64,000 bases of DNA from Luteithermobacter gelatinilyticus. GTDB lineage: Bacteria > Pseudomonadota > Alphaproteobacteria > Sphingomonadales > Emcibacteraceae. This document shows, piece after piece, positions 58,881-63,060 of this stretch. The first letter of the stretch is position 1, and each line of letters begins with the position of its first letter. A program made the position numbers and the translations under genes. The notes under the pieces are model-generated. The model saw only the letters and a program-made list of their open reading frames with translations. It was not told the origin of the DNA and did no database searches. The stretch covers positions 1-64,000 of the forward strand of contig NZ_CP040517.1 of NCBI RefSeq assembly GCF_005849285.1. Reading direction: 5' to 3'.

Positions 58881-58910
58881 TAATATGAATGGGGTTAATA
58901 TGAATGGGGT
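58881..58910. repeat. 15-bp tandem duplication
   Basis: TAATATGAATGGGGT twice, ending at the -35 box of the marR promoter. Confidence 0.85.
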
Positions 58911-58937
58911 TGACATACCCGGGCACTTCCTTAATAT
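58910..58937 (+). promoter_or_regulatory. Promoter of the MarR-type gene
   Basis: TTGACA at 58910-58915, 16-base spacer, TAATAT at 58932-58937. An operator follows 11 bases downstream. Confidence 0.6.
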
Positions 58938-58948
58938 TAGCCTTGATA

Positions 58949-58965
58949 TTAGTTAGGCTAACTAA
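58949..58965. promoter_or_regulatory. MarR-type operator 1
   Basis: TTAGTTAGGCTAACTAA, a near-perfect 17-bp palindrome just after the -10 box, so binding would block transcription of the marR gene itself. Confidence 0.65.
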
Positions 58966-59081
58966 TTTTATTTGATCGTGGCCCAATATAAGATATAAGG
59001 GGTATGAGATAAGGGGTCCCGATCCCTAAAACCAGATCAGAAAAAAGGATGACGTTTTCCAACCAAAGGAGTGTGGGGTAT

Positions 59082-59540
59082 ATGATGTCTCTCGGTCAGG
59101 CCCTCGATCATGTGCAAAGATATTTGGCCCGGCGCTGGCAGGCGGAACGCAGCCTGCGCCCCCTGACTTTCAGTGAATATGATTACCTGAAATCTGTGGA
59201 AAGATTGGAGCAGATCTATCATCATGAGCATCAAGGAGAGAAACGGGACTTTCATGGGCAAGGGGCACATCTGTCCCAACTGGCCGAAACTCTGCAGGTG
59301 CAACGGGCCTCTGCCAGTACGATGGTTAAAAAGCTGGAAGAACGAGGGTTGATTGAAAGAGTACGATGCCAATATGACTCCCGGGCCTGGCATATTTTAC
59401 TGACCCGCGACGGACGGGACCTTCTGGAAAAGGAAAGTCGGGTTTATGATTTGGTGGCGCATGAAATCCAGGATTTGCTCACGCCGGAGGAGGGGGTGAA
59501 ACTGACGGCTCTTCTGACGAAAGTCTGCCGAAACCTGTGA
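59082..59540 (+). CDS. MarR-family transcriptional regulator
   Basis: 152 residues from the ATG at 59082 (AAAGGAG upstream); an ATG at 59049 is less well placed. The winged helix is at about 60-120: HLSQLAETLQVQRASASTMV for the HTH and CQYDSRAWHILLTRDGR for the wing. The amino helix carries RPLTFSEYDYLKSVERL. Three copies of one palindrome near its gene and the methyltransferase gene suggest it represses both and senses a small ligand. Confidence 0.85.
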   Translation: MMSLGQALDHVQRYLARRWQAERSLRPLTFSEYDYLKSVERLEQIYHHEHQGEKRDFHGQGAHLSQLAETLQVQRASASTMVKKLEERGLIERVRCQYDSRAWHILLTRDGRDLLEKESRVYDLVAHEIQDLLTPEEGVKLTALLTKVCRNL

Positions 59541-59617
59541 TCTGGCCCCGCTGGCTCGTCCAAGATCAGCAAGTTGGTGAAATCGTGAACTCTGGTGTGG
59601 TTTTTCAATGCGAAGTT

Positions 59618-59657
59618 CCCAGGCTGTATGACATCAACCCAGGCTATATGACATCAA
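59618..59657. repeat. 20-bp tandem duplication
   Basis: CCCAGGCTGTATGACATCAA and CCCAGGCTATATGACATCAA, adjacent, in the 422-base spacer 59541-59962 between the marR and methyltransferase genes. Confidence 0.85.
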
Positions 59658-59836
59658 CAAGGACAGGACCGTCAAATTCATCACACCAGATCCAATAAGC
59701 ATAAGGGACCGGGCGGGCCGTAATAAGGGCGTGGCTTCGCGTAAATTGTGGTGAGAGTCGCGCTAAAGTTTTTCAACCACATACAAACACTGACGAAAGG
59801 AAAGAGATCAAAGGGAACATGTTATGACTTTTAAAG

Positions 59837-59853
59837 TTAGTTAGCCTTACTAA
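59837..59853. promoter_or_regulatory. MarR-type operator 2
   Basis: TTAGTTAGCCTTACTAA, 110 bases before the methyltransferase start; same consensus as operators 1 and 3. Confidence 0.6.
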
Positions 59854-59885
59854 CCTAAATAATTCACGAGATGGCCGTTTACAAC

Positions 59886-59945
59886 GCGAGAGTTAAGGCG
59901 GCGAGAGTTAAGGCAGTGAGATTAAGGACAGTGAGATTTAAGAAT
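59886..59945. repeat. Four degenerate 15-bp tandem units before the methyltransferase gene
   Basis: GCGAGAGTTAAGGCG, GCGAGAGTTAAGGCA, GTGAGATTAAGGACA, GTGAGATTTAAGAAT. They lie in the likely untranslated leader. Confidence 0.8.
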
Positions 59946-59962
59946 TTAAGATAGGGGAACCC

Positions 59963-60559
59963 ATGACCAACAGAAACTGGAAAGCATTTTGGCAGGAATA
60001 TTATGAAGCTTGTGACGAGGTCTGGACCAAACCGGATGATTTTTTGATGCAGGAAGTGCGGACTCTCAAACCGGGTCGGGCGCTGGATCTTGGCGCGGGT
60101 CAGGGCGCGGATAGCATTGCCCTGGCGCAACAGGGATGGCAGGTCACAGCGGTGGATTTTAGTGCGGCGGCGATCCGGGATCTCGCGCGCGCTGCGGCAC
60201 AAGCGGGGGTCAGGATCACCACCCATATCGGGGATATTCTGGATTTTTCTTCGCCCAAAAAATTCGATCTGATTTATCTGTGTTTTATTCATTTACCCAA
60301 AGCCGACCGCACCCGCCTTCTGGCCCAGATCGGGGATCTTCTGGTGCCGGGTGGGGTGGTGCTGTATATCGGCCTGACCGGGGTTGATTTTGAGGATCAG
60401 GCCGCACAAGAGGATCTTTTTGCGCCGGCTGAGGAGATAGCCGGGCTGCTCCAAGGGCTGGAGATTGAAAAAACCGAAACCCGCCGCCGGAAGATGGACA
60501 TTCCGGGGCACAGTTTCGAAGCAGACGGTGTGGTGGTGCGGGCCCGCCGGCGGCCATGA
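59963..60559 (+). CDS. Class I SAM-dependent methyltransferase
   Basis: 198 residues. Motif I LDLGAGQGADSIALAQQGW, motif II VTAVDFSAAAIRDL and IGDILDF, then FDLIYLCFIHLPKADR identify a small-molecule methyltransferase of the TehB/UbiG-like fold; the substrate is unknown. It follows operator 2 and precedes operator 3, so it is the probable target of the MarR protein. Confidence 0.87.
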   Translation: MTNRNWKAFWQEYYEACDEVWTKPDDFLMQEVRTLKPGRALDLGAGQGADSIALAQQGWQVTAVDFSAAAIRDLARAAAQAGVRITTHIGDILDFSSPKKFDLIYLCFIHLPKADRTRLLAQIGDLLVPGGVVLYIGLTGVDFEDQAAQEDLFAPAEEIAGLLQGLEIEKTETRRRKMDIPGHSFEADGVVVRARRRP

Positions 60560-60906
60560 ACTCTCCGACGTGTGGCTAACATTCTGGGGACGGATATTAG
60601 ATTAGTTAGGCAAACTAACTTAATATCCGTCTTAATATCCGTTGATCAGGATTCAGGGATTCAATCAATGCCTTCGGCCAGGGAGTCATTGTTGCCCGTG
60701 CAGCTGTTGTTGCATGTAGTTGTCACCCGCCGCTGCTGTCGCGCGGGGGCCAGGAGAGATCAACAAGGAGAGATCAACAAGGAGGGAGTAAAAAAAGAAG
60801 GGTCGAAAAGGAGCGGCAAAGAAAAAAGGGTAAAGAGGGAAAAAAGGGCGAAAAGGGGGTTGAGACCCTTTCCGCCCGAAAGTTGCGCAGTAGACAGCAC
60901 GAAAAA
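60560..60906. other. Spacer without a supported gene
   Basis: Holds operator 3, a 14-bp tandem duplication (GGAGAGATCAACAA at 60753-60780) and a purine-rich tract (about 60780-60868). A rightward lysine/arginine-rich frame crosses it, but composition and lack of any domain speak against a gene. Confidence 0.5.
60591..60629. promoter_or_regulatory. MarR-type operator 3 within a longer palindrome
   Basis: TTAGTTAGGCAAACTAA at 60602-60618 lies within outer arms CGGATATTA (60591) and TAATATCCG (60621). Another TTAATATCCGT follows directly. It is 32 bases after the methyltransferase stop; no convincing gene follows on the + strand. Confidence 0.55.
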
Positions 60907-63060
60907 TCAGCTATAGAACTTTTCGCCCTTGGCGACTTTTTCTTTCAGAAGCTTGGGCGGGGTATAATGAGCCCCGTAGCGGGCCGCCAGTGCCTCACAA
61001 TCTTCGAGGAATTTCTTGGGCCCGATGGTGTCCACCATACTTAAGGGGCCGCCGGTCCAGGGCGCAAAGCCCCAGCCGAAAATGGCCCCGATATCCGCAT
61101 CTTCCGGGGCCAGCAGCACCCCTTCCTCAAGGCAGCGGATCACTTCGATGGCCTGGCGGTACATCAGCCGCTTGGTCACCTCTTCCGGCGCGGGTTGTTG
61201 ATCTTTCAGCGGGAACAGTTCAGCAAGCCCCGGCCAGAGATATTTTTTGCCGCCCTCGGGATATTCATAAAAGCCGTGGCCGTTCTTTTTGCCTTTGCGG
61301 CCCAGCTCCTTATAGAGTTTTTCCACCACCGCGTCCGCCGGCTGGGCCACATAAGCCTCGCCAAGGGCTTTTTTGGTGGCTTCGGTCACATGATAGCTGA
61401 GCTCCAGGCTGACCTCGTCGCCCACCGCCAGCGGCCCCACAGCCATGCCGGCATAAACCCCGCAGTTTTCAATAAGCGCCGGGGCAATGCCTTCGGCCAC
61501 CATATTGCCGGCTTCCTGCACATAGGTGGCAAAACAGCGGCTGGTGTAAAAGCCGCGGCTGTCATTGACCACGATCGGGGTTTTCTTGATCTGGGCCACA
61601 TAGTCCAGGGCCTTGGCGAGCGCCGCATCCCCGGTTTTTTTGCCCATAATGATCTCCACCAGCGGCATTTTGTCCACCGGCGAGAAGAAATGAATGCCGA
61701 TGAACTGATCTTCGCGCTGGCTGGCCTTGGCCAGTTCGGTGATCGGCAGGGTGGAGGTGTTGGAGCCGTAAATACAGCTTTCCGGCACCACCGCTTCCGT
61801 CTTGGCGGTTACATCTGCCTTCACGTCCATATCTTCAAGGACCGCTTCAATAATCAGGTCACAGCCTTCAAGATCCGCATAATCGGTGGTCGGTTTGATC
61901 CGGGCGAGAATTTCATCGGCCTTTTCCGGGCTCATTTTCTTGCGTTTAACCGCCTTGTCCAGCAGCCCCCGGGAATAGTCCTTGCCTTTTTCGGCGGCTT
62001 CCTGGGTCACGTCCAACAAGATGACCTCGATCCCGGCCCGGGCAGAGACATAGGCGATCCCCGCCCCCATCATGCCCGCGCCCAGCATACCGAGCTTTCT
62101 GGTCGGCATTTTCGGTTGGTCCTTGGGCCGGCGAATGCCTTTTTCCGCGGCCTGTTTGTTGACAAACAGCGTGCGGATCATGTTGGGGGCCACGTCGCCC
62201 CTAAGCAGATCGACAAAATATTTGCTCTCGACTGCAAGCGCCTTGTCCATGGGAAGCTGGTGGCCTTCATAAACACAACTCAGGATGTTGATGGCGGCCG
62301 GATAGTTCCCCTTGGTTTCCTTTTTGGTCATGGCGGTGGCGCCAATAAAGGTCTGCACGATATTGGGGTCATAAACGCCCTGGCCGCCAGGGATCTTGAA
62401 TTTCTTGCTGTCCCAGGGCTGTTCCGCCTTGCCGCCGTCGAGAATCCATTTTTTCGCTGCCGGGATAATTTCGGCTTCCGGCACCACCTGCTGGATGACC
62501 CCGAAGGCCAATGCCTGCTGTGGTTTCATATTCTTGCCCTGTAGCAGATATTGCAGGGCCATCTGAACCCCCATCAGCCGCGGCAACCGCTGTGTGCCCC
62601 CGCCGCCCGGCAGCAGGCCGACCATCACCTCCGGCAGGCCCAGATTGAGTTTCGGGTTGTCCGCTACTACCCGGTGATGACAGGCCAGCACAATTTCCAA
62701 TCCGCCGCCCATGGCGAGACCATTCACGGCCGCCGCCACCGGCTTGCCGCAGGTTTCCAGGTCCCGCAGCATTTTGTTGAGCCGAAACGCCTTAGCAAAC
62801 ATTTCCTCCGGGCTCATGCTGTCGCGGTTCTGGGTGAGAGAGAGCAGCATGCCGAGATCGGCACCGGCCACAAAGGAGCCTTCCTTGGCCGAAGTGATGA
62901 CAGCCCCCTTGATGGCGTCATCTTCGGAAATCTTGCGGATCAGCGCCTCCATGTCGTCCATGAAGGCTTCGGTGATCACATTCATGGATTTACCCGGCAC
63001 GTCAATGCTGAGGAGGGCGATACCGTCCTGATCCAGATCGAATTTGATGGTATTTGTCAT
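60907..63060 (-). CDS. Bifunctional enoyl-CoA hydratase / 3-hydroxyacyl-CoA dehydrogenase (FadB/FadJ-type)
   Basis: 717 residues, alpha subunit of the beta-oxidation complex. The hydratase domain (to about 190) has [20 protein letters not shown] and [19 protein letters not shown] with both catalytic glutamates. The NAD-binding site is [20 protein letters not shown] near 328-347, and the catalytic histidine is in [19 protein letters not shown]. Two carboxy-terminal dehydrogenase domains follow. It begins 12 bases after the thiolase gene in a fadA-fadB operon (thiolase first). Confidence 0.94.

Follow-up and report, generated by a model that had tools for sequence, protein, structure and literature searches.

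A marR gene flanked by conserved palindromes beside a methyltransferase gene in Luteithermobacter gelatinilyticus: a predicted MepR-like circuit

Regulators of the MarR family frequently, though not universally, have a palindromic operator in their own promoter region. The closest known system to the locus described here is MepR–MepA of S. aureus: MepR represses both its own gene and the MATE pump gene mepA via pseudo-palindromes and a GTTAG motif that occur in either promoter, and its site at mepR is situated shortly past the −10 element (PMC3617543). A link between a MarR regulator and a methyltransferase is described for TamR of Streptomyces coelicolor, which is named after trans-aconitate methyltransferase, is released by small metabolites and controls several citric-acid-cycle genes (PMC5487221).

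The window (i.e. the whole stretch of 64,000 nucleotides that was analysed) contains three copies of a 17-bp palindrome, TTAGTTAGSCWWACTAA, at a marR-family gene and a methyltransferase gene (Table 1). Copy 1 (TTAGTTAGGCTAACTAA) is a perfect palindrome around one central base, while copies 2 and 3 read TTAGTTAGCCTTACTAA and TTAGTTAGGCAAACTAA respectively. The first-pass annotation had placed them just past the marR promoter, upstream of the methyltransferase gene and downstream of it in a spacer, and our window search recovered all three in this arrangement: a promoter-like TTGACA-16-TAATAT precedes copy 1, copy 2 lies 296 bp past the marR stop codon and 110 bp ahead of the methyltransferase ATG, and copy 3 lies 43 bp past the methyltransferase stop codon. 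As the predicted promoter ends 11 bases before copy 1, this copy would lie at approximately +4 to +20 relative to the predicted marR start site. With up to three mismatches allowed on both strands, the window gave six matches, i.e. the three places on each strand (expected 0.21), a number reached in none of 100 shuffles. We then scanned the entire genome (3,145,891 bases in one contig, 99.3% complete) with TTAGTTAGNNNNACTAA at up to two mismatches, a search in which many copies at unrelated places would have spoken against a motif of this locus; sites with no or one mismatch were confined to the three of the locus. All other matches had two mismatches, namely a shifted reading of site 3 and sites at 1,883,259, 2,476,595 and 2,476,767. 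The latter two, near TetR-type and TonB-receptor-like genes (named by eye from their translations), were considered as a second cluster and set aside as unrelated.

Table 1. Coordinates of the features at the marR–methyltransferase locus, numbered from the first letter of the window.
Feature	Position	Strand	Basis
Predicted sigma-70-type marR promoter, TTGACA-16-TAATAT	58910..58937	+	Consensus scan, 10/12 matches
Operator 1 (putative; copy 1), perfect 17-bp palindrome	58949..58965	.	Motif search; conserved in relatives
marR-family repressor gene, P0001, 152 aa	59082..59540	+	Pfam, AlphaFold2, Foldseek
Operator 2 (putative; copy 2), between marR and methyltransferase gene	59837..59853	.	Motif search; conserved in relatives
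Class I SAM-dependent methyltransferase gene, P0002, 198 aa; TehB/TPMT/Slr1183-like	59963..60559	+	Pfam, PDB sequence match
Extended 43-bp inverted repeat enclosing copy 3; strong RNA hairpin	60589..60631	+	19-nt arms, 89% complementary
Third palindrome copy (copy 3), between convergent genes	60602..60618	.	Motif search
Next gene, convergent	60907..63060	-	–

The marR product, P0001, scores above the Pfam cut-offs of both MarR_2 (39.2 bits; cut-off 27) and MarR (38.3 bits; cut-off 24.6), and its AlphaFold2 model is a confident winged-helix (pLDDT 90.7). The best Foldseek match of this model is the MepR–DNA complex 4lln (E 1.0e-7), with many other MarR structures about as close, and by sequence too MepR is one of many MarR proteins comparably close to P0001. 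The likeness to MepR–MepA includes a MarR-fold repressor that is putatively autoregulated, the presence of GTTAG/CTAAC in copies 1 and 2, i.e. at regulator and partner, as in S. aureus (PMC3617543), and a MATE pump as partner in nine relatives of the window's MarR from outside its class. Unlike MepR–MepA, the window has a class I methyltransferase and not a MATE pump as partner, and identity in the structural alignment is 20%; since its output is a methyltransferase, we do not file the system as MepR–MepA. Membership of the MarR family suggests, by analogy, that P0001 may be under ligand control.

Relatives of the MarR protein were gathered by protein similarity alone, blind to the DNA motif, yielding 22 relatives and, with the window, 23 loci. 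The window's own family contributed only the window's genome (1 of 32), and its own order one clear relative besides the window, G049 (1.2e-16), among 296 genomes including its own; 98 of these 296 matched the MarR protein at E ≤ 1e-5, the weak matches, G000 and G049 excepted, being taken as other MarR families. Three clear relatives besides the window were found among 385 in the class, two of 43 in the order of G593 (both already in the class search), nine of 292 in the order of G316 (G316 itself among them) and 13 of 398 in the phylum sample, nine of which were new and came from two families outside the class. Two plasmid records, both from Phaeobacter inhibens and of the same length, coordinates and score, were represented by one in the comparison, and a contig scan gave a single locus, in Kordiimonas gwangyangensis, at the same place as G049. 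The 23 loci do not count as independent events: G739 is near-identical to G829, and a single genus accounts for eight of the nine genomes from outside the class. A clan tree (29 rows) was discarded as an argument; in it the window protein had no well-supported close partner and one long outgroup row fell inside the clan.

Operators were scored by matching the half-site TTAGTT[A/C]G to its partner half at a gap of 1 or 5 (maximum 16), the A/C tolerance and the two gaps having been set after the sites were seen. Upstream of marR, scores were 13–16 in every one of the 23 loci (the window included), and at no locus did more than 1 of 500 shuffles do as well, whereas none of 28 control loci with non-orthologous MarR genes, taken from the weak MarR matches (L010–L037), had a matching palindrome (maximum 11 upstream and 10 downstream). 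Behind marR, 18 of the 23 loci, again with the window, scored 13–16; three more reached 12, i.e. G049 (shuffle fraction 0.028), G993 (0.02) and the Phaeobacter plasmid (0.032), and by the same scoring a second operator was absent from two (G1206 and G1222). The palindrome, whose absence near orthologous marR genes would have counted against the first-pass annotation, is thus present upstream in 22 of 22 relatives. Of the gene pair whose conservation it had put up for checking, marR with its palindromes is kept (clearly behind marR too in 17 of the 22 relatives) but this methyltransferase as partner is not: the motif occurs near none of the P0002-like genes at 14 other loci, so that a P0002-type methyltransferase was rejected as the conserved partner. 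The MarR–methyltransferase regulon it proposed holds in so far as the motif is unique to the locus in its genome and conserved by related marR genes; 'regulon' is generous for two neighbouring genes, and the third copy fits no promoter. Degenerate-motif searches in the genomes of 15 relatives found many sites at marR loci together with two-mismatch strays, and as the reversed control pattern equalled or exceeded the motif in frequency in most of the 15, uniqueness is not claimed there.

Promoter-like sequences accompany the first operators. A TTGACN lies 21–26 bp before the marR operator in each of the 13 class loci besides the window (those of 12 genomes and of the plasmid) and 39 bp before it in the window. 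When all 23 loci were taken together, none of 2000 shuffles attained the mean best match to TTGACA before first operators, although the nine loci outside the class add little to this signal (4–5 of six letters, at scattered distances). This geometry makes it very likely that the marR promoter is blocked at the first operator. Before the second operators (18 loci) a −35 box is not enriched, 1894 of 2000 shuffles being as good; the second operator may act as a road-block inside an operon or at an unrecognised promoter.

We put at roughly four in five the probability that the adjacent MarR protein uses the palindrome as its operator in an autoregulated, MepR-like circuit, predicted from sequence, with the methyltransferase as output, release by a ligand and detoxification as its role. 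The direct basis is the three copies, their genome-wide uniqueness and an operator–marR–operator–partner order kept inside and outside the class, and from it we infer binding by P0001, repression, ligand release and detoxification. A ligand-free MarR dimer would occupy copy 1, overlapping the predicted start of the marR transcript, and so limit its own synthesis, while MarR on copy 2 would keep the methyltransferase off, either at its promoter or as a road-block in a marR–methyltransferase operon. Binding of a toxic small molecule to the repressor would release both genes, and the methyltransferase, whose relatives include TehB as well as thiopurine, thiol and halide methyltransferases, would probably inactivate the inducing molecule by methylation. 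The main competitor, still an unlikely one, is that MarR controls only itself, copies 2 and 3 being relics or decoys and the methyltransferase constitutive or under another factor. Copy 2 does stand 110 bp from the ATG with no promoter for the methyltransferase found near it, either by consensus scan or by −35 comparison across loci, the P0002-type gene is not a conserved neighbour and the second copy is missing from two loci of the clan; this is set against a second copy that stays clear behind marR in 17 of 22 relatives despite the differing type of partner.

It is very improbable that the palindromes work in RNA, as terminator or attenuator hairpins, and not as protein-binding DNA. Copy 3, the core of the extended inverted repeat, does fold strongly (−22.7 kcal/mol; z −4.73 versus shuffles), but as RNA copies 1 and 2 are no better than shuffles (z −1.06 and −0.27 respectively), copy 3 has no T-run after it, and the sites upstream of marR in the class, which begin 21–26 bp past the first base of TTGACN, extend over the untranscribed −10 region. 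Because the next gene is convergent, neither strand carries a gene that site 3 would evidently control, and no third site was found at up to three mismatches of the 17-bp form in the clan loci read with extended flanks (L048–L051, 9–11 kb). The probable roles of copy 3 are those of a surplus or a decoy site, or simply of a piece of a transcript-ending hairpin. The idea that the palindromes belong to a dispersed repeat family or arose by chance in AT-rich DNA, for which nothing speaks except the AT-rich spacers, is ruled out for practical purposes by the shuffles, by the whole-genome scan without a further copy within one mismatch and by the conservation of the palindrome in MarR relatives.

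The methyltransferase, P0002, matches Pfam Methyltransf_25 (67.8 bits), TehB (46.2 bits) and TPMT (39.9 bits), the latter two above their cut-offs, and its best PDB sequence match is Slr1183 (2kw5, 2.5e-15). It falls below the cut-off of every NCBIfam model among the best 25 of 53. The Pfam TehB and TPMT matches are shared with detoxification enzymes of the TehB and thiopurine methyltransferase type, but P0002 lies far under the TehB equivalog models (48.8 bits; cut-off 219.5) and does not classify as a TehB tellurite methyltransferase. As with TamR (PMC5487221), a MarR protein is tied to a SAM-dependent methyltransferase in the window; in contrast to that system, P0002 is no trans-aconitate methyltransferase, with 24.0 bits against a cut-off of 297 for the corresponding model, and the window motif is found at local sites only.

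Partner genes differ between loci: a TehB-like methyltransferase in the window, another methyltransferase in two genomes, a small membrane protein in ten relatives and a MATE pump in the nine loci outside the class, the pumps having been recognized by reading translations and confirmed by Pfam in the two of nine that were tested. In G593 and G504, marR is paired with a class I methyltransferase of the Methyltransf_11/UbiE-like type (45% mutual identity over 170 residues), to which P0002 shows short weak matches only (best E 0.005 and 0.20 in a single comparison). A protein of 129–136 amino acids containing YxQWxCPYCAGFWI is the partner in all nine loci of G316's order and on the Phaeobacter plasmid, and a gene similar to this CPYC membrane protein follows the methyltransferase in G504. 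Membrane-type proteins of 128–136 amino acids with YxQWxCPYCxGFWI were seen in L047 (1937–2326), L056–L063, L046 (395–781) and L077 (4491–4889). No Pfam or NCBIfam model matched the CPYC protein above cut-off, DUF1360 giving a weak echo, and its structural model is poor (pLDDT 71.6; pTM 0.49). With one family member as query no relative of it was found in the window's own genome, and the notion of a decayed copy near site 3 was abandoned after an hmmsearch of the six-frame window with the profile of the family, the best hit (E 0.9) being elsewhere in the window. In G049 no same-strand partner directly follows marR, and a GNAT gene converges on it.

Since matching palindromes stand beside quite different partner genes in distant relatives, the locus looks, from sequence comparison, like a MepR-type detoxification switch that can be reused. 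We tentatively suggest, with rather less than even confidence, that operator–marR–operator is a portable cassette in which the DNA code is kept and the partner is exchanged (MATE pump, CPYC membrane protein and at least two unlike methyltransferases), the partners being alternative ways of dealing with a single class of ligand, either by exporting it or by masking it chemically. If so, the window would represent methylation in place of efflux under the same sensor, and if pumps and methyltransferases share one sensor, the known substrates of MATE pumps would be the first ligand candidates. Circuits of this kind are common; noteworthy here is that the DNA code is conserved although the partner genes can be exchanged. 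The comparison assigns both this code and its partner genes to the MarR clan, and it provides a first regulatory link for a conserved small membrane protein without a Pfam or NCBIfam family. Among the open-licence papers listed for the topic, none described this clan or linked the TTAGTTAG operator to it, which is no proof of absence.

The Phaeobacter inhibens plasmid pP83_h (L077; 21.5 kb, typed as conjugative) carries the marR–membrane protein pair beside recombinase genes and a divergent GNAT–methyltransferase fusion, and the presence of the pair on a plasmid of conjugative type indicates that the cassette can travel. The methyltransferase half of this fusion is 35% identical to P0002 over 111 residues, and in G839 (L059) a PEMT/ICMT-type methyltransferase gene (2114–2488) is divergent from marR; these far-side methyltransferases may be a coincidence. 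Of the 23 clan MarR proteins, 19 share a cysteine that is residue 96 in P0001, where the wing begins (those of G049, G1057, G1213 and G1157 lack it); it is a possible redox or metal sensor. The spacers of the locus also contain short tandem duplications (58881–58910, 58989–59016, 59618–59657, 59886–59915 and 60619–60642), perfect or near-perfect, of 12–20 bp and in two copies each, which may account for the greater distance of both operators from their genes than in most relatives.
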